64,000 bases of DNA from Elusimicrobia bacterium GWA2_56_46 (GTDB lineage Bacteria; Elusimicrobiota; Elusimicrobia; Elusimicrobiales; UBA9959): the NCBI GenBank assembly GCA_001799575.1, contig MGTT01000011.1, positions 186,001 through 250,000 of the forward strand, written 5' to 3'. Below are positions 12,107 through 60,317 of the stretch, in pieces (position 1 is the first letter of the stretch; every line of letters begins with the position of its first letter). The position numbers and the translations under genes were made by a program. Below the pieces are notes generated by a model that saw only the letters and a list, made by a program, of their open reading frames with translations, was not told where the DNA came from and made no database searches.

Positions 12107-12125
12107 AAAACCTCCCGCTAAATTT

Positions 12126-12519
12126 TTTGATCGCGGACTGTACCCCGAATTCTGTCTTTATGCCTTGCGGCATAGAGAGGATCATTTATCTTGTGCGGCC
12201 CACTCTGCGCTTCCGCCCTTGCGGGCGGAGGACGGGCAGTCCGTAACGCATATTTGGCCTTGCTCCGGGCGGGGTTTGCAATGCTTTGCCGGTCGCCCGG
12301 CAAACGGTGCGCTCTTACCGCACCTTTTCACCCTTACCTGAAGCCTTGCGGCCTCCGGCGGTATACTTTCTGTTGCACTTTCCGTAAACCGGGGATCTGG
12401 CCCCGGCCTCCCGGCCTATGGCCGCTTAACGGCTTTGGACCGGCGCCTTGCCTTATGGAGTTCGGAAGTTCCTCTCCCCCCGCAAGCGGGAGAAGCGACC
12501 CTCCGTCCGCGATCAAATC
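12126..12519 (-). ncRNA. rnpB: RNase P RNA (bacterial type A-like)
   Basis: Read on the minus strand, it shows the conserved core of bacterial RNase P RNA: a CR-I-like GAGGAACTTCCGAACTCC, the ACAGAAAGTATACCGCC segment, GGTAAGGGTGAAAAGGTG followed by CGGTAAGAGCGCACC, then AAGATAAATGAT and GACAGAATTCGG near the 3' end (CR-V). The 5' and 3' ends pair through a 13-bp P1 helix (12505-12517 with 12126-12138). CR-I departs from the usual AAAGUCC, with ACTTCC instead. It processes tRNA 5' leaders with RnpA protein. Small ORFs in this interval are spurious. Ends are approximate. Confidence 0.93.
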
Positions 12520-14873: not shown

Positions 14874-15728
14874 CTACCGGATATTCTTAAGTATCTCTTT
14901 GGTGGCTTTAGACCTGTTCAGCGTATAGAAGTGTATCCCGGGCGCGCCCCGCTTCAACAGCTCTTCGGCCTGCCGCGAGGCGTACTCCACGCTGAACTTC
15001 AAAAGCGACTCCTTATCGTCCGCGTATTTTTCCACGCCGTCCTTTATGACCCGCGGCAGGAACACGCTGAAAAGCTTGCTGAAATTCTGGAGCTGTTTAT
15101 AACTGGTGAGCGGCATCAGGCCGGGTATTATGGGCGCGGCCACGCCGGCTTTACGCGCTTTCTCCACGAACTCGAAATAGAACCTGTTCTCAAAAAACAA
15201 TTGGGTGATGATAAAGTCCGCGCCCGCTTCAGTCTTTGTTTTCAGCGCCTTTATGTCGGTTTCGAAATCCGCCGCTTCCGGATGTTTTTCAGGATAACCG
15301 GCGCCGCCGATGGAAAATCCGCCGAGGGCTTTGAGGTCCGCGGCCAGCTCGCTGGCGTAGCGGTACTCCCGCTTCGGCGGAATGCCTTCTATATTGTGGA
15401 TATCTCCGCGCAGGGCCAGGACATTCTCTATGCCAAGGATCTTCAGGCGTCCGGCGATGGCCTTTATCTCCTCCCGGCTGTGCCCTATGCAGGTAAGATG
15501 GGCCATTACCTCCAGGCCCAGTTTTTCCTTTATGACCCCGGACAGCGCCACGGTCCGGTAGGGCGCCGCGCCCGTGGAGGAATTTGTGATGGAGATGAAA
15601 TCCGGATCAAGGGCCTTCAGCTCTTTTACCGTCTCAAAAAGTTTTTCCGAGTCGGCTTCCGTCTTCGGCGGATAAAACTCGAAAGAAAACAGCTTCCCCG
15701 GTCGTTTCAGTCTTTCCGTAATTTTCAT
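14874..15728 (-). CDS. metF: Methylenetetrahydrofolate reductase
   Basis: 284 aa from ATG 15728 (MKITERLKRPGKLF); a longer frame would start inside an inverted-repeat element. It reduces 5,10-methylene-THF to 5-methyl-THF with FAD. Visible features are FSFEFYPPKTEADSEKLF with the catalytic Glu, SITNSSTGA, AHLTCIGHSREEI, NVLALRGDI with the conserved substrate-site Asp, FIITQLFFENRFYFEFVE, IIPGLMPLTSY and GIHFYTLNRSKAT near the end. It is full length for bacterial MetF. GAGAAG lies just upstream of the start. It supplies methyl groups for methionine synthesis. Confidence 0.95.
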   Translation of the reverse strand: MKITERLKRPGKLFSFEFYPPKTEADSEKLFETVKELKALDPDFISITNSSTGAAPYRTVALSGVIKEKLGLEVMAHLTCIGHSREEIKAIAGRLKILGIENVLALRGDIHNIEGIPPKREYRYASELAADLKALGGFSIGGAGYPEKHPEAADFETDIKALKTKTEAGADFIITQLFFENRFYFEFVEKARKAGVAAPIIPGLMPLTSYKQLQNFSKLFSVFLPRVIKDGVEKYADDKESLLKFSVEYASRQAEELLKRGAPGIHFYTLNRSKATKEILKNIR

Positions 15729-15753
15729 AATCTTCTCATAAAACTTTCCTCTA

Positions 15754-15901
15754 GGGCCGGGCGCGGGGTTGCCGACGGGTATCACTGGAGGGGTGACGGG
15801 TGTCGGGCTTTTTTGACCCCGCAGGTTGCCGAGGGAAGCAAAAAAGTCCGACCCCGGCAGGACCCCGAACTTGCAGCCGTCGGCAACCCCGCGCCCGGCC
15901 C
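15754..15901. mobile_element. 148-bp element with 25-bp perfect terminal inverted repeats (MITE-like)
   Basis: Ends 15754-15778 and 15877-15901 are exact 25-nt reverse complements (outer sequence GGGCCGGGCGCGGGG...). A nested 13-bp repeat with one mismatch (TCGGGCTTTTTTG / CAAAAAAGTCCGA) lies inside. It begins one base after the lepB stop and ends 26 bp before the metF start. It encodes no protein. It could be a non-autonomous transposable element or an elaborate hairpin terminator; I see no clear target-site duplication. Confidence 0.6.
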
Positions 15902-15902
15902 C

Positions 15903-16961
15903 CTACTGCGGCAGCCCCATCCTGGACAACGGCCAGTAGATAAACCACGCCCTTCCCTTTATGAGATAGGCCGGCACCGGGCCCCAATAGCGTGAATCGC
16001 ACGAACGATCCCGGTTATCGCCCATTACCATATAATGGCCTTTGGGCACCGTCACGGGGCCGAAGTTGTCCCTGACGAGTTCGGAGACCATCTTGGCCAG
16101 CATCCTGTTCTCCCAGAAAAGCTGGTAATCGACCGGAGGTATGCGGCTTGAGTGGGGCCGCGGGTAACGGCCGGGATCCAGATACTGCGTATAGGATTCG
16201 TCCGCCAGCTTGACCCCGTTGATAAACACCGCCCCGTCCTTAAGTTCGACCGTCTCTCCGGGCAGGCCGATGACGCGTTTTATAAAATCTTTGCCGTACT
16301 GGCGGCCGCCGCACTGCTCCTCGTCGGGATCAAAGGACGGGAACTGGAAAATCACGATATCCCCCCGGTTTATTTTTTTAAAATCCAGCACTTTCTTATG
16401 CGTGTAGGGGATCCTGAAACCGTAAATAAACTTGTTGACGAAGAGGTGATCCCCCTCCAGGAAAGTGCTCCTCATGGAACCCGAGGGGATCTTGAAAGCC
16501 TGGACGAAGAGATACATGACCACCGACGCCAGAACCACGGCGGAGAAGATGGTCTCCGACCACTCCATGTCTTCCTTTATCCCGGGCGGCAGGGCGGCCA
16601 GGTGGGCCGCGGCGGGTTTTCCGTCCTTGTGCGCCGGCTTATTCTCCGCCTGAGTTCTGGCGGAAGCGGATTTTTTCGCCCCGAACCTGAAATACGCCCA
16701 GAGCCCCCCCGCCAGACCGGCGAGAAGTCCGTAGATAACCTGTTTCCGGGAGAACAGAACGGCGGTCACCACTTCTCCCTTGCGGTTGTCCAGGCTCACC
16801 ATCAGGAGGAGCATACCCGCAAAACCCACGATCGCGATAAACACCGCGTGCCAGACGCGGGCGAATTCCTCGGACTTAAATCTGCCCTTTTCGCTGAAAT
16901 GATGGGAGAAGAATAAGTGAACGCCCACCAGAATACCGATCCAGAAAAGTTTTTCTTCCAC
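15903..16961 (-). CDS. lepB: Signal peptidase I with N-terminal membrane extension
   Basis: 352 aa from GTG 16961, chosen because AAGGAG lies seven bases upstream and the previous gene stops at 16976. Three hydrophobic segments (about 5-22, 38-58, 75-95) precede a charged linker and the anchor segment. The S26 boxes follow: catalytic Ser in KIPSGSMRSTF, catalytic Lys in GKDFIKRVIGLPGE, and box E in MGDNRDRSCDSRYWGPV. It cleaves signal peptides on the outer face of the inner membrane. The N-terminal three-segment region is longer than in typical LepB. It is the next gene after lepA, as in many bacteria. Confidence 0.94.
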   Translation of the reverse strand: MEEKLFWIGILVGVHLFFSHHFSEKGRFKSEEFARVWHAVFIAIVGFAGMLLLMVSLDNRKGEVVTAVLFSRKQVIYGLLAGLAGGLWAYFRFGAKKSASARTQAENKPAHKDGKPAAAHLAALPPGIKEDMEWSETIFSAVVLASVVMYLFVQAFKIPSGSMRSTFLEGDHLFVNKFIYGFRIPYTHKKVLDFKKINRGDIVIFQFPSFDPDEEQCGGRQYGKDFIKRVIGLPGETVELKDGAVFINGVKLADESYTQYLDPGRYPRPHSSRIPPVDYQLFWENRMLAKMVSELVRDNFGPVTVPKGHYMVMGDNRDRSCDSRYWGPVPAYLIKGRAWFIYWPLSRMGLPQ

Positions 16962-28574: not shown

Positions 28575-28582
28575 CGGGTATG

Positions 28583-28687
28583 TATTCAGTAAACCCGTCA
28601 TCCCGGCGATCTGTTGGCCGGGATCCATTGAATAAAGATTTATGGATTCCCGCTAAAAGCACGCGGGAATGACGGGTTTACTGAATA
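28583..28687. mobile_element. 105-bp palindromic element with 19-bp terminal inverted repeats
   Basis: Ends 28583-28601 and 28669-28687 are perfect reverse complements (TATTCAGTAAACCCGTCAT). Inside are three shorter hairpins (CCCGGC/GCCGGG, GGATCCAT/ATGGATTCC, CCCGC/GCGGG). The CCCGTCATTCCCG-type sequence resembles dispersed intergenic repeats in many bacteria. It sits between the ABC ATPase and permease genes. Confidence 0.7.
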
Positions 28688-28708
28688 TCTACGGTAAAGA
28701 GAGATCCA

Positions 28709-29629: not shown

Positions 29630-31174
29630 GGTCAGGACATAGTACGCGCTTAACGGGGCGGCGGCGGAGAAGTAAATGTTTTCCGCGTCTTCACGGATCT
29701 TCGACGGGACTATCTCCCTCCAGCCTTTTCCGTCCAGATAGAGGAACGAATAAGTCTTTCCTTCCGCGCCGCTCTTCTTCACCTTGAACTCGAACGCGAT
29801 GTTTCCCTGGATCTCGCCGGGACCCGGAGGGAACTGCCAGGCTTTCAGCGGCCTGGCGCCCGCGGGCAGACTGGACGCCAATGCCGGCGGAAGCTCGCCT
29901 CCGGTCAGGGAGAGGCTGACTGCGGCCTGGCCGCGGACGAGAGTTCTGAATGAAAAAGCGTAAAGATCCGAACCAGCGGAAACAGCCTTTATCCCGTATT
30001 GCACGCCGCGCTGGGAAATCATCAGCGCTTTTGAGGAAACGTCGTAGGAAATCACGCCCGCATTGCGCATTTCCATGACCGGGGCCACCGCGCCTTTAAC
30101 GGCCCTGGCCGGTGCCGCGCCGCCCCCGAACCTGACATTCAGGGAAAACCTGTGGGAATTCCCCAGATCCCCGAAGGGACTGAAAGCGTAATCGAAAGAG
30201 AAGCGGCTGAAAGAGATCCCCGCCCCGGCCGAGAAACCAGACCAGGGCCCCAGTTCGTTGCCGTAAAGCCGGTATTTATATCCCGTCCTCAGCGCCAGCA
30301 TACTGGTCAGGGGATATTCCGCGCCCAGGATAAAGGAAGGATAATTGTCTATCGGCTTGTCGGCCTCCAACGCTATAAGCGCCCCCGAATCCGGCAGACG
30401 GCGGCTTACCCCGGCCTTGAAGATCAGCGGAAGATCATAGCGCTTGGAAATAAACTTCACCCCCGGGCCGATGTTCTGGACCGAGAAACCTCCTGTCCAG
30501 AGATCTCCCCGCCAGGTAAAATCCTTCAGAACGCCGAGATCCAGGGCGAACGAACTGCCGGACTTGTCGTCTATGCTCTGGCGTATCACTTTCAGCGCTC
30601 CGCCGAGACTCAGATCCCTCCCGGTTTTCCAGCCGTAACCGGCCGAAAAAGCGAGATCGTAAGCCCCGAACTTCCCCTCCACCGGCGAGATGGGCGCGAG
30701 CGGATCGCTTTCGTTCAGCCCGCTCCTTCGCTCCAGGTCTTTCGGCACGTAAAAATAATCTAGGCCCAGGCCCCAGACCCCGGAACGGAGTTCGCGCGAC
30801 TTCAGGAATTTTATACCCTCGGCCGGAGAAGTGTAAAACAGAAATTCCTGACCCAGGCCCTGAAAATAATCGTTATGGAACAAGCCCAGGTTTCGTTCCC
30901 CCCCCAGGGCCGCGAGCCCGGCCGGATTCCAGTAAATGGCGTAAGGATCGCGCGCGACCCCCGTAAACGCCCCGCCCATGGCCACGGCGCGGGCGCCCAC
31001 GCCCAGCTTAAGGAACGTGGCCGAAGTGGTGCCGGCGGAAGGGTAGATCTTCGCAGCGTAGACAAGGGATGAGGGATGAGGGATGAGGGCAAAGATCAGG
31101 AAAATAAAGAGCCGCGACCCGAAAATTTTTTTTGGGTTTCGCCCGCATTTTTTTAACCAAAAAATATTCCTCAT
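29618..31174 (-). CDS. PorV/PorQ-family outer-membrane beta-barrel protein with C-terminal extension
   Basis: 518 aa from ATG 31174; a purine tract (GAGGGAG) derived from the upstream heptamer array lies eight bases before it. The signal peptide is long (about 1-47) and includes a heptamer-encoded IPHPSS stretch before VYA-AKIYPSAG. The barrel (about 50-370) starts with the hallmark TTSATFLKLGVGARAVAMGGAF, continues through DPYAIYWNPAGLA and ends near HRFSLNVRFGG. In Bacteroidota PorV shuttles type IX substrates at the outer membrane. Residues about 375-518 form an extra beta-rich domain not found in PorV. The gene upstream encodes a type IX-like tail, a functional hint. Confidence 0.82.
   Translation of the reverse strand: MRNIFWLKKCGRNPKKIFGSRLFIFLIFALIPHPSSLVYAAKIYPSAGTTSATFLKLGVGARAVAMGGAFTGVARDPYAIYWNPAGLAALGGERNLGLFHNDYFQGLGQEFLFYTSPAEGIKFLKSRELRSGVWGLGLDYFYVPKDLERRSGLNESDPLAPISPVEGKFGAYDLAFSAGYGWKTGRDLSLGGALKVIRQSIDDKSGSSFALDLGVLKDFTWRGDLWTGGFSVQNIGPGVKFISKRYDLPLIFKAGVSRRLPDSGALIALEADKPIDNYPSFILGAEYPLTSMLALRTGYKYRLYGNELGPWSGFSAGAGISFSRFSFDYAFSPFGDLGNSHRFSLNVRFGGGAAPARAVKGAVAPVMEMRNAGVISYDVSSKALMISQRGVQYGIKAVSAGSDLYAFSFRTLVRGQAAVSLSLTGGELPPALASSLPAGARPLKAWQFPPGPGEIQGNIAFEFKVKKSGAEGKTYSFLYLDGKGWREIVPSKIREDAENIYFSAAAPLSAYYVLTAKD
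31066..31086. repeat. In-frame heptamer array inside the PorV signal peptide, three units
   Basis: (GGGATGA)x3 on the plus strand, so TCATCCC in mRNA sense; encodes LIPHPSS within the signal peptide. Confidence 0.9.
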
Positions 31175-31184
31175 AACATTATCT

Positions 31185-31324
31185 CCCTCATCCCTCATCC
31201 CTCATCCCTCATCCCTCATCCCTCATCCCTCATCCCTCATCCCTCATCCCTCATCCCTCATCCCTCATCCCTCATCCCTCATCCCTCATCCCTCATCCCT
31301 CATCCCTCATCCCTCATCCCTCAT
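31185..31324. repeat. Perfect heptamer array, (CCCTCAT)x20
   Basis: 140 bp, exactly 20 uninterrupted units (GGGATGA in mRNA sense), filling the gap between the PQQ-propeller gene stop (31332) and the PorV-like start. In mRNA sense each unit carries an ATGA start/stop overlap and an AGGG purine core; the last units supply the ribosome-binding purines of the PorV gene. Confidence 0.98.
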
Positions 31325-31331
31325 CCCTTCC

Positions 31332-56746: not shown

Positions 56747-59481
56747 GAAAAATTCTTCCCTGTCACCTCCGCGCCGGCGCCCACTGAAATGGTGGAGGAA
56801 CTTTTGCTGGTATAGCTTACGGAGCCGGTCTTAACGTCCACCACGGGGTAAAAAGCCCGCACATAATAGGTGGAGGTGGTGCTTGAGCGCACCTCCAGGC
56901 TGTAAGTACCGTCCGACTTGCTGGAAACGGAATATAAAATAGCCTGGGCCGGCGCCGAAGAAGCGTAAATGGTGTTTAACGGGCTGGGAACCGCGGCCGT
57001 GCTGGCCACCACCAGAACGCCGGTGGTGATGGGCGCGCCGTCATAACTGACGCTGCCGCTGATGGTGCCCAGCGCGCCGATAACGGTTATGGTTCCGGCG
57101 AAAACGGTGGCCCCGGCGGTGGTGACGCTGGAAACCAGCGGGTAAGAGGGGACGGAAGTGTAGCCCTGGAGGGGGTCAAGCTCCGGGGTCACGGTGTAGG
57201 CCACGGAAGAGGTGGCGGCGAAAATGTAGAAATATCCGGTGCTGTCCGTGGTGTCCTCGTAAACCGGCCCGCCGTTGGAAGCCCGCACCGGAATATTCGG
57301 GATCGCGCCGGTTCCCGAAGTAACATAGCCTTTCAGGTATCCGCCTTTTGCCAGGTGAAAATCCGGGATATTGGAGACGACCCCCTGCAGAATCGTGGCG
57401 ACATTATCGCTGGTGGTGTAATTCCCGTCGTTCGAATTGTAGTTCGCGGTGATCACCGCTGTGCCGGTAGATACCGGGAGGAAGTACCAGCCCTGCGAAT
57501 CGGTAGTGGTATAATTCCCATCCGAAGAACCCACCCTTTTTCCGCCAAGCCGGGTCCAGTAATCCGGGCCGGCGCCATATACATATCCGGAAGCCAGGCC
57601 GCCGGTATACGTAGAGGATAAAAGCATATAACTGAAGCCGGAAACCGGCCAGGAAGACACGGTTATACCGTTGGGCACGCTTGTGCTGACGTTCTGGAGC
57701 ACAGTGACGCTTGAGATGGTGGCCAGATAATCGCCGTATATAGCCGTCACTTTCCAGACGCCGGTGGACACCCCCACGATGGTGAACGACGAGTACGGGC
57801 AGGTCTGCCCCTGCGGGCCCGTGACGTAACCGCTGGACGACCGCACCGCGTAGGAATTACCGTCGTCGGCGAAAACATAAGCCGACAAAGCGGGTACGCC
57901 GGAAAGGACGGCCTGTTTCGGACTGGCCGAACTGAAAGGCCTGTAATTTATCCCGACCGCGACACCGGTGTTGTAATAAAAATTATTCAGATTGTCCCCG
58001 CTGTCGTAGGCCCTGCCGTAGCTCGTCCCGACCGCACAGGGGGTTGAGAACCTTACCAACTGGTCGTTCCGGTTTAAACCGCCGGGCAAAGAAATGCAGC
58101 CTGTCTCGCATTGGCCCGGAATGCTGGCGGCGCTATTGTTGGTCCAGCCGACCGCGTCAAGCGTGGAGCCGGAACTGTCCGTAAGCCATACCGTACCGCT
58201 GCGGTTATACATCAGAATCGGCTTCTCGTAAGGTAAAAGCCAGAGATAGCCGGGGACGCTGGTGTTTGAGCAGGCGGTGTTTGCGGTGTCGGTATAGTAG
58301 GCATCCGCCGTAATAGCTAAGCCGTTCACCGTAAAGCCGCTGGTATTAGCAATGAGGTAATACCCGCCCGAGACCGCAAAAGTTGAAACATAAGTAAGAG
58401 GTATGTCAGTGCACACCTGGTCGGGGCTCGGATATTTGCTGGTAAAGTTAAGATTTATCGAGTGCGAAACCGCATCCCCTATGTTTATGGGCGCCGGGGT
58501 CGGATTGAACAGTTCTATGTACTGAACGTCTACGCCGCTCACCTGCACTGTAGAGGCCACGACCTGGCTGATGACCAGGCTGGGGTTTATAGCGTAAAGA
58601 CTGTCGGAGCCCACCGTGCCGGAAGCTATGCGGACAATGGAAAAATCCTTGGGCGTATAGTTGCCGTCGGAAACAAAAAGACTGGTGCTTGTGGTCTGGG
58701 GAAAAAATCCGGCCGAGGAACAGACAAGCGTATATGACCCCGGGGCCACCTGGAAACTATAGTTGCCGCCGGAGTCGGAATAGCCGCGCCATTTCGGAAC
58801 GCCAGCCACCTGGACAAGGACGCCGCCGGCCGGAGAACCGCCCTCCCTTATCACGCCGCGGAAGCCTGCGCTTAGGGTGGCCGCGCTGGGATTCTGGTAA
58901 TAGCTGTCCAGTTGGACTTTTCTATTTTCGCCCCGATCCGTCCAGAAAACATACACCGTGATCTTTTTCATCCCGGGATCGGAGTAGCTGTACGGGACGG
59001 TGGAAATATTGCTGCCGGACACCGAAGCATAATCGACATTTACGGCGCGCGTCAAAGCGGGCATCCCCCACAACGTTATGGTTTCCGGGGGATAATTGTT
59101 GGAATCGTAAACAAAGTTCGTGGTGAAACCGGAGCTCACCACGGGGGCGGTGGTAACCATAAGCTGAAAATAGGACTTATTTTTCAGCACCTCCATTTTT
59201 TCCTGGGCCAGATTCGTGGCTATGCTCTTAAGCCGGGACTGCGCCAGTGCCACGTTTATGTATTTAAAACTGCCCATGGCCGCCACCACGCCTATGGTAA
59301 TTACGGCCATGGCGATCATAAGTTCGGCCAGCGAAAATCCGCCGCGGGCCGGCAAGGGATGAGGGATGAGGGATGAGGGATGAGGGACAACGGGGGAGGG
59401 GAGATTTTTACACGGTTCGTAGCCGCTGCCCCCGTAGGATATCCGGCGCGGATTAAAATGTTCTTTCAGTAGGCGAATCAT
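56737..59481 (-). CDS. Large prepilin-type protein with carboxypeptidase-like, lamin-tail and Cys domains
   Basis: 914 aa from ATG 59481 (an ATG in the heptamer array at 59490 is the alternative). The prepilin site ARGG|FSLAELMIAMAVITIG is preceded by an unusual leader of about 45 residues, partly heptamer-encoded (VVPHPSSLIPHPLP). After the pilin helix (to about 85) come a pilin-like part, a carboxypeptidase-regulatory-like repeat (GVIREGGSPAGGVLVQVAG), a lamin-tail-like domain (VDVQYIELFNPTPAPINIG) and further beta-sandwich modules (SGSVSYDGAPITTG). Such a long tail makes it a candidate pilus-tip adhesin. It opens an operon that runs into the RiPP-like genes. Confidence 0.85.
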   Translation of the reverse strand: MIRLLKEHFNPRRISYGGSGYEPCKNLPSPVVPHPSSLIPHPLPARGGFSLAELMIAMAVITIGVVAAMGSFKYINVALAQSRLKSIATNLAQEKMEVLKNKSYFQLMVTTAPVVSSGFTTNFVYDSNNYPPETITLWGMPALTRAVNVDYASVSGSNISTVPYSYSDPGMKKITVYVFWTDRGENRKVQLDSYYQNPSAATLSAGFRGVIREGGSPAGGVLVQVAGVPKWRGYSDSGGNYSFQVAPGSYTLVCSSAGFFPQTTSTSLFVSDGNYTPKDFSIVRIASGTVGSDSLYAINPSLVISQVVASTVQVSGVDVQYIELFNPTPAPINIGDAVSHSINLNFTSKYPSPDQVCTDIPLTYVSTFAVSGGYYLIANTSGFTVNGLAITADAYYTDTANTACSNTSVPGYLWLLPYEKPILMYNRSGTVWLTDSSGSTLDAVGWTNNSAASIPGQCETGCISLPGGLNRNDQLVRFSTPCAVGTSYGRAYDSGDNLNNFYYNTGVAVGINYRPFSSASPKQAVLSGVPALSAYVFADDGNSYAVRSSSGYVTGPQGQTCPYSSFTIVGVSTGVWKVTAIYGDYLATISSVTVLQNVSTSVPNGITVSSWPVSGFSYMLLSSTYTGGLASGYVYGAGPDYWTRLGGKRVGSSDGNYTTTDSQGWYFLPVSTGTAVITANYNSNDGNYTTSDNVATILQGVVSNIPDFHLAKGGYLKGYVTSGTGAIPNIPVRASNGGPVYEDTTDSTGYFYIFAATSSVAYTVTPELDPLQGYTSVPSYPLVSSVTTAGATVFAGTITVIGALGTISGSVSYDGAPITTGVLVVASTAAVPSPLNTIYASSAPAQAILYSVSSKSDGTYSLEVRSSTTSTYYVRAFYPVVDVKTGSVSYTSKSSSTISVGAGAEVTGKNFSWP
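59356..59383. repeat. In-frame heptamer array in the prepilin leader, four units
   Basis: (GGGATGA)x4 on plus, TCATCCC in mRNA sense, encoding PHPSSLIPHP just before the prepilin cleavage site. Confidence 0.95.
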
Positions 59482-59483
59482 AT

Positions 59484-59553
59484 CCCTCATCCCTCATCCC
59501 TCATCCCTCATCCCTCATCCCTCATCCCTCATCCCTCATCCCTCATCCCTCAT
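59484..59553. repeat. Perfect heptamer array, (CCCTCAT)x10
   Basis: 70 bp between the Spy-like stop (59556) and the prepilin start (59481). GGGATGA in mRNA sense; it supplies the purine tract before the prepilin start. Confidence 0.97.
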
Positions 59554-59555
59554 CC

Positions 59556-60317
59556 CTATGGGTACGTCCCCGCGGCTTCGTCCGTTTCCGGGGCCGGGGA
59601 TTCCTTGCCGGCGGAAGCGGCTTTTTTCCTCAAGCCCCTTCTTTTTTTGGGAGCGGAGGGCGCGACGGCCGGCTGCTCGTTATCCACCATCATCAGACCC
59701 GGTTCCTCCTCCGGCGGCGCGGCGGCGGCGGGGAGGGCCGGCGCGGCCGGGGCGGCCGCTTCGGATCCGGGAACCGCGTTGGAGGAGCGGGGCAGCTTCC
59801 TCCGCCTTACCGGCCGTTTCTTCCTGGCGGGTTTGGGCTCTTCGGCGAACCCTGGCGCCGCCTGCGGCTCGTCTTTTTTTATTTCCGGCTGGGCCGGCTT
59901 ATTCCCGGCCGCGAGCATGGCATCATAGGTCTGGCGCTGGTCGTCATCGAGAAAATCCCTGATAAGATCCGGCATCTCCTTGCTTATCCTGGCCATTTCG
60001 TATTTCAGTTCATTGCCTTTGTACCGCCATTTTTTCTCTTCGGCGGAAACCTGGTCGTATTCCTTGAGCAGTTTGTCGAAATCCCTGCTTTTCTTGTCCA
60101 TGGCGGCGGTAATGCGCTCCTCCTGCTTGGCGCTCAGGCGCAGCTCCGCGCTCAGTTCAGCCAGCGCCCTCTGCGCGTCGGGCCGCTGGGTCCGAACTTC
60201 CCCGGCCTCCGCGGCCGGGTTCTCCTGCATACCGGGCAGACCGGGCAGCAGCAGATCGTCGGCTTTTACCGGGGACGCCGGCAAAAGCAGCGCCGCTAAA
60301 ATAAGCATTGTTTTCAT
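59556..60317 (-). CDS. Spy/CpxP-like periplasmic protein with low-complexity tail
   Basis: 253 aa from ATG 60317 (GGAGG six bases before). A signal peptide (MKTMLILAALLLPASPVKA) is followed by an all-helical segment (about 40-140) with the LTxxQ-like pattern: LRLSAKQEERITAAMDKK and LIRDFLDDDQRQTYDAML. The rest is Pro/Ala/Lys-rich with basic clusters (ARKKRPVRRRK, KKRRGLRKK), which may bind envelope polymers. The stop codon is in a degenerate last heptamer. It could chaperone the envelope proteins encoded downstream. Confidence 0.72.
   Translation of the reverse strand: MKTMLILAALLLPASPVKADDLLLPGLPGMQENPAAEAGEVRTQRPDAQRALAELSAELRLSAKQEERITAAMDKKSRDFDKLLKEYDQVSAEEKKWRYKGNELKYEMARISKEMPDLIRDFLDDDQRQTYDAMLAAGNKPAQPEIKKDEPQAAPGFAEEPKPARKKRPVRRRKLPRSSNAVPGSEAAAPAAPALPAAAAPPEEEPGLMMVDNEQPAVAPSAPKKRRGLRKKAASAGKESPAPETDEAAGTYP

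Follow-up and report, generated by a model that had tools for sequence, protein, structure and literature searches.

A perfect palindrome between lepB and metF as a probable copy of a dispersed, nested hairpin family of Elusimicrobiota

What does a long perfect palindrome between two adjoining genes mark, a mobile element with terminal inverted repeats or a strong hairpin kept at its site? The question is raised by a 148-bp palindrome between lepB and metF in the genome of Elusimicrobia bacterium GWA2_56_46 (2.66 Mb in 30 contigs, 98.84% complete, Elusimicrobiota), found within a window of 64,000 nucleotides, by which the whole stretch of DNA analysed is meant. A first-pass annotation had proposed either a MITE-like insertion or selection for a very strong hairpin. 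The reading favoured here, with moderate confidence, is that the palindrome is a dispersed copy of a nested, REPIN/REP-like, non-autonomous hairpin family of the Elusimicrobiota, in which the folded single strand is what is preserved.

Structure of the lepB-metF palindrome

The gene assignments of the first-pass annotation are confirmed, both genes lying on the minus strand (Table 1), and its limits for the element are exact: the inverted arms, 15754-15778 and 15877-15901, are 25 nt long, 100% complementary and separated by 98 nt. The palindrome had been placed directly after lepB and indeed begins one base past the stop codon (15903-15905); its far end is 25 bases from the metF ATG at 15728. 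A second, nested repeat, also noticed at first, is present inside the palindrome as the arm pair 15824-15841/15871-15888 (83% complementary), and the T and A runs are real, T6 and A6 pairing with one another within the stem. At up to 3 mismatches the 25-nt arm finds this pair alone within the window, with 0 matches in 100 shuffles.

Predicted folding of the palindrome is strong as RNA and as DNA. The RNA fold of 173 nt of the minus strand has an energy of -108.3 kcal/mol, where shuffles average -71.4 (sd 4.3); z is -8.6, and 0/200 shuffles are as good. The plus strand of the palindrome folds as DNA with z -9.9, again with 0/200 shuffles as good. The T run directly after a G+C-rich hairpin that would make an intrinsic terminator is absent, the T runs sitting in the stem. 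A terminator scan around the palindrome gave 1 site within 501 bases, with a shuffle mean of 0.9, and no promoter-like site was found in these 501 bases.

At gathering score, Rfam gives nothing for the palindrome, and in the loci of seven relatives it gives two tRNAs alone, outside the hairpins; the four weaker matches for the hairpin at E <= 1 are to microRNA models, far below their thresholds. The one Rfam family found at gathering score in the window is bacterial RNase P RNA class A (RF00010, 224.9 bits), at 12125-12514 on the minus strand.

Table 1. Features of the lepB-metF junction, in window positions
Feature	Position	Strand	Remarks
metF, methylenetetrahydrofolate reductase	14874..15728	-	stop included; TIGR00676, 313.4 bits, cut-off 293.7
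Whole palindrome, 148 bp	15754..15901		between lepB and metF, read on the minus strand
Left arm, outer 15 nt	15754..15768	+	perfect complement of 15887-15901
Family 'type A' flank, left, TTGCCGACGGGTATCACTGG	15769..15788	+	resembles flanks of other type-A copies, own and G002
Core hairpin of the family, 79 nt, model R1	15789..15867	+	
Hairpin foot, left, GGGGTGACG	15790..15798	+	mismatch A at 15796
Covarying stem, left strand, ending CTTTTTTG	15799..15815	+	pairs with 15839-15854
Apical loop region, ACCCCGCAGGTTGCCGAGGGAAG	15816..15838	+	other copies carry other apices
Covarying stem, right strand, beginning CAAAAAAG	15839..15854	+	
Hairpin foot, right, CGGCAGGACCCC	15855..15866	+	mismatch partner G at 15857; bulge GGA 15860-15862
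Family 'type A' flank, right, AACTTGCAGCCGTCGGCAA	15868..15886	+	with foot gives pattern GNCAGGNCCCCGAACTNGCAGCC
Right arm, outer 15 nt	15887..15901	+	perfect complement of 15754-15768
lepB, signal peptidase I	15903..16961	-	stop included; TIGR02227, 151.5 bits, cut-off 47

Copies in the genome and the parts they share

A BLAST search of the own genome with window positions 15745-15910 (the element and 9 bases on each side) gave 45 matches, self included. These mainly cover positions ~33-134 of the query or part thereof, i.e. the inside of the palindrome and not its outer arms. An alignment of the core, A2, comprising 39 copies (29 own, 5 from G001 and 5 from G002, both of the same genus), is the basis of model R1. 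A search of the own genome with R1 at E <= 0.01 gave 88 matches, reduced to 47 distinct places by manual removal of other-strand duplicates, a lower bound with 150 of the 2613 first-look candidates scored. Together with one place found by BLAST only (C22:74843) these form a set of 48 copies, mainly intergenic, 2 of which fall inside an ORF called by a codon-score gene caller. The pattern GNCAGGNCCCCGAACTNGCAGCC, consisting of the right half of the foot and the type A flank, occurs, with up to 3 mismatches allowed, at 51 own places, against 0 for the reversed pattern; 21 of these overlap the 48 copies and 30 are further ones, and the union amounts to at least 78 hairpin places in the genome. 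To the left of 16 of the 48 copies, ~60-145 bp away, stands the motif GGGNGGG-(18-34 nt)-GGNGGG with an A+T-rich stretch after it; the GGGNGGG...GGNGGG pattern occurs 3 times as well when the left flanks are reversed.

On the inside the copies share a covarying apical stem and, below it, a foot, GGGGTGNCG...CGNCAGGNCCCC, made asymmetric by an A.G/G.A mismatch and a bulge of the form GGN. The mismatch, preserved in A2 between GGGGTG and CAGGNCCCC, is A.G in 17 copies, G.A in 14, C.G in 7 and G.G in 1. In a count of 91 distinct feet, of which 44 belong to own R1 copies, 30 to the loci of relatives and 17 to own hairpins with another apex, A.G (39) and G.A (32) account for 71; C.G (13) and G.G (3) follow, and T.G, G.C, G.T and T.A occur once each. 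The T.G is the window copy itself, which is A.G in A2 and owes its entry to a register slip of the automatic reading. Two changes are required to turn A.G into G.A, and mere correction of one arm by the other would abolish the mismatch, which is therefore read as selected. The foot may be the recognition site of the family.

Between foot and apex the stem covaries. RNAalifold predicts 28 pairs on A2, with both sides changed in 14, and in helix 2 double changes are seen in 12 of 20 pairs. On this structure 98.6% of 1092 cells are paired, and 0 of 500 shuffles reach any of five measures. When the partner is slid by 1-3 columns pairing falls to 37.0-62.3%, a comparison that favours the true register, A2 having been aligned by sequence and the structure derived from A2. 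Since the two arms change in step, it is the folded shape that evolution appears to preserve. The non-Watson-Crick cells of the plus-oriented strand comprise 23 G.T, 7 A.C and 8 others (G.T and A.C making 13 and 6 distinct pair types), and the plus orientation folds more stably in 35/48 copies (Wilcoxon p 0.002). This excess of G.T over A.C, together with the greater stability, is a mild sign that folding takes place on the plus-oriented strand, the one antisense to the gene usually found upstream.

Matched arms could also arise by mutation alone, if intergenic palindromes were perfected by template switching or hairpin repair and folded without selection. Such an artefact would account for the perfect outer arms and the matched arm changes, and one stretch of the arm has an exact 19-nt match elsewhere in the genome, in an unrelated ORF on contig C6. 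We regard it as very improbable: correction of the arms should erase both the mismatch kept as A.G or G.A in most feet and the GGN bulge, would not be expected to raise G.T above A.C on one strand, and leaves the 78 related places unexplained.

A perfect inverted repeat read alone can mislead, for in this element the copies have least in common just where the repeat is perfect. Compared with the 47 other own copies, the left outer 15 nt reach a best local score of 8, equal to the 99% point of shuffles and with none beyond chance, and the right outer 15 nt a best score of 7, equal to the 95% point. The ends of a MITE are expected to be the best-conserved part of the element, but for the outer 15 nt 0 of these 47 copies score higher than the best shuffle. 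The first-pass annotation had looked to a genome-wide search for copies with shared ends; the element is multi-copy, but its ends are not common to the own copies and the shared part is the inside. The two natures then proposed both stand: the element is dispersed and of the insertion type, and its hairpin is very strong. The arms as shared MITE-type ends are either unsupported or mistaken.

The 25-bp arm of the window copy consists of 10 bp resembling the family flank (here TTGCCGACGG, and TTGCCGGCGG for a G002 copy) and the outer 15 bp. On contigs of relatives, two copies, L062 (G002) and L106 (whose contig is probably misbinned), can be aligned in register with the left outer 15 nt, agreeing at 11 and 10 of 15 positions by manual count, and the outer arm may therefore be the fast-changing, matched stem of a subfamily. 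As the core of the window copy is 91% identical to a G002 copy and 85% to the nearest own copy in A2, sequence comparison would fit a subfamily that predates most of the own copies.

A classical MITE, with the 25-bp perfect arms as terminal inverted repeats for a DDE transposase, is considered quite unlikely. The element is multi-copy, intergenic and palindromic, as a MITE would be, and L062 and L106 do align through the left outer arm. Moreover, these hairpins are contained in a separate composite repeat of ~570-720 bp that is bounded by TIR-like ends CCAAATCCTCCGATAAGCGG and carries two oppositely oriented hairpins, e.g. L127 1960-2570 (own contig C18) and six more copies. The end CCAAATCCTCCGATAAGCGG occurs at 14 places in the own genome (reversed control 0), but is absent at the window copy, 0 of the 14 places being on its contig C11, and the outer 15 nt of the window copy are matched beyond the 99% point of shuffles in none of the other own copies.

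Presence in relatives and position beside genes

lepB was found in nine of the ten genomes searched (not in G003), and metF adjoins it in all nine loci. Of these loci R1 matches the own locus alone, the hairpin being absent in 8/8 relatives. Since it is multi-copy and absent at the junction in all eight relatives, the element is a dispersed one and not the single-copy terminator conserved in place that the first-pass annotation had given as the contrary outcome; a conserved terminator is rejected on this absence and on the background level of the terminator scan. At the sites of two further copies, C18:5591 and C18:13114, R1 likewise gave no match in G001, G002 and G016, the gene order at the latter site differing in G002. 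The window copy is flanked by TAG on both sides on the minus strand. The spacers of the relatives are too diverged for an exact empty site or a target duplication to be read, so that we infer transposition rather than read it from the junction.

BLAST with the window copy as query gave matches in 9/61 genomes, and R1 in 10/13 chosen genomes, the own genome included in both counts; distant genomes are matched weakly by R1. A collection of 84,980 species was scanned for one exact pattern, that of the type-A foot, which occurs in 9 stretches from 4 Elusimicrobiota assemblies and in no other phylum, in a collection that may omit the own genome and near ones and with one of the nine stretches probably belonging to contig C278. 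The foot recurs in relatives with different apices. A strong R1 match in G034 (L052) lies on C278, on which LysA is 86% identical to that of G002 and 61-62% identical to those of three genomes of G034's own genus. C278 is probably a misbinned contig in G034, and for this reason horizontal transfer to G034 is not counted as spread across genera.

The lepB-metF junction looks as if it were a spot tolerant of insertion. By eye, the spacer in G005, G016 and G034 (L072, L071 and L075) bears other, unrelated repeats or inverted repeats.

Copies have a preferred placement beside genes. In the canonical minus-strand orientation a stop codon lies within 250 nt upstream of 29/48 copies, against 8 on the other side, some copies being counted in both. 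The gene caller, a home-made codon score trained on the window, was used at three settings; the other two gave 26:5 and 33:13, with binomial p of 0.0002-0.005 from a test that treats related copies as independent. The window copy obeys this downstream-of-stop rule. Neighbouring copies less than 2.5 kb apart form eight pairs, 6 of them (-,+). Some pairs enclose low-GC genes, and on C27 three same-orientation copies lie near lower-GC genes. Paired copies as the ends of gene cassettes were dropped as a general rule, several other pairs enclosing genes whose codon use is host-like.

A functional structured RNA, be it a 3'-UTR stabiliser, an attenuator or a dispersed small RNA, selected at each site and spreading by duplication, would likewise be compatible with the covariation and the downstream placement. 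The strength of the covariation (14/28 pairs, 0/500 shuffles), the preference for G.T over A.C and the more stable folding of the plus-oriented strand, and the bias downstream of stop codons all argue for such an RNA. It is nevertheless unlikely, given that the element is absent at orthologous sites, that no promoter-like site occurs in the 501 bases and that no Rfam family is reached for the element at gathering score; the strand favoured by G.T is, besides, the antisense of the upstream gene's transcript, which is awkward for a role in the 3'-UTR.

Variable apices, known hairpin systems and possible modes of spread

Apices vary between copies and can be grouped by type. The CCTTTTCG apex is that of the window copy and of most R1 copies. 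A GGATCGGGCC-type apex is found in most of the 29 further type-A stretches examined (L194-L222, 29 of 30 places). Larger apices stand on the same foot in the relatives G003/G005/G016, G013, G024 and G034, some of them multibranched in the predicted fold, and L216, L220 and L221 are feet without, or nearly without, an apex. In seven aligned copies of the composite repeat, the same hairpin position bears a second apex in six and the CCTTTTCG apex in one (C15:176503/176892). Because the apex differs in one of the seven at the same position, apices may, on this alignment, be exchanged between copies, with the exchange bounded by the foot; two separate insertions would be the alternative account of the 6:1 difference.

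Integron attC sites have a constant foot, bulged bases and a variable terminal structure, and are oriented relative to the upstream gene; their core-site motif is GTTRRRY/RYYYAAC. The hairpins resemble them in having a constant foot with extrahelical bases, a variable tip and a folding strand antisense to the upstream gene, and the three same-orientation copies on C27 could likewise suggest a folded recombination site of an integron-like system. Such a system is nonetheless hardly credible here. Matches to the integron integrase model TIGR02249 were over the cut-off in 0/8 genomes and are at the level of general tyrosine recombinases, as also seen in 14/14 controls. No GTTRRRY/RYYYAAC core sites were seen by eye, the foot being unlike this motif, and several pairs of copies enclose genes of host-like codon use.

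Closer parallels are offered by REP sequences. REPINs, as outlined in PMC3116915, are hairpins with conserved ends in which compensatory changes are common, and the present family resembles these REP doublets as small, non-autonomous intergenic hairpins with conserved ends, compensatory changes and many copies per genome. It differs from REPINs as there described in its asymmetric foot with a mismatch and a 3-nt bulge, an apex varying between genomes and copies, nesting in composites and the lack of RAYT association. By the account in PMC3733652, REPs lie mostly downstream of coding regions, and the GTAG- and CGTC-tagged ones are 20-40 bp long and end on one side in an unpaired GTAG or CGTC tag. 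The hairpins share with these the position mainly downstream of coding regions and the opposite orientation of neighbours, whereas they measure 80-150 bp, and inspection by eye showed neither tag at the foot in alignments A1 and A2 or in the flanks of copies. By analogy, the family would seem to work like REPs, though neither a RAYT link nor a GTAG/CGTC tag identifies it as one.

With MITEs, as also defined in PMC3116915, the family has in common that it is non-autonomous, dispersed and palindromic; it differs in that the terminal repeats are not common to the copies of the own genome, and no target duplication could be read. Repeated intergenic stem-loop families sharing a secondary structure are catalogued for 40 bacterial genomes in PMC2267715. 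The likeness to these, in the features compared, is that of repeated intergenic elements of shared secondary structure; the string 'Elusimicrob' is absent from the main text of that catalogue. In the open literature searched no description of a hairpin repeat family in Elusimicrobiota was found, and the best reading is that the family is new.

A RAYT as the mover is unsupported. At 13 RAYT loci in three genomes, examined up to ~1.5 kb on either side, no core was found (best 13.6 bits, E 0.66). G002, with 17 R1 matches before removal of strand duplicates, gave no match to a Y1 transposase (RAYT) at E <= 1e-5 in a genome that is ~90% complete. The RAYT on own contig C6 has palindromes of its own, different from the hairpins.

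For a dispersed, REP-like hairpin family the following mode of spread may be envisaged. The near-constant asymmetric foot and the apex of the hairpin would fold as one strand, and the folded form would probably be recognised by a protein acting on single-stranded hairpin DNA, and so be copied or moved; a protein acting on RNA instead is less likely. Transposition in trans would be the means by which the copies spread. The window hairpin, being very stable, may now serve the lepB-metF operon as a passive 3' mRNA stabiliser or attenuator. A bolder, and rather unlikely, extension is that of hairpin cassettes, in which the constant single-strand foot would be the site of recombination or transposition and the tips would be exchanged, one enzyme serving many nested, unrelated palindromes across a bacterial family. 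The natural variation separates the likely recognition determinants (foot mismatch and bulge) from the tolerated part (the apex), so that the spread of short palindromes without a linked transposase becomes testable.

Further repeats unlike the hairpin family were noted in the course of the analysis. The REP-associated tyrosine transposase gene on C6 is flanked by its own short palindromes, AAAAGGTGCCTGGCACCTTTT (L080 1166-1232 and 1888-1908). In the window, inverted arrays of a 7-bp AGGGATG-type unit surround unique spacers at 31064-31329 and 59355-59557, and a long imperfect inverted repeat lies at 28578-28692, its arms being 51 nt long, 80% complementary and 13 nt apart.
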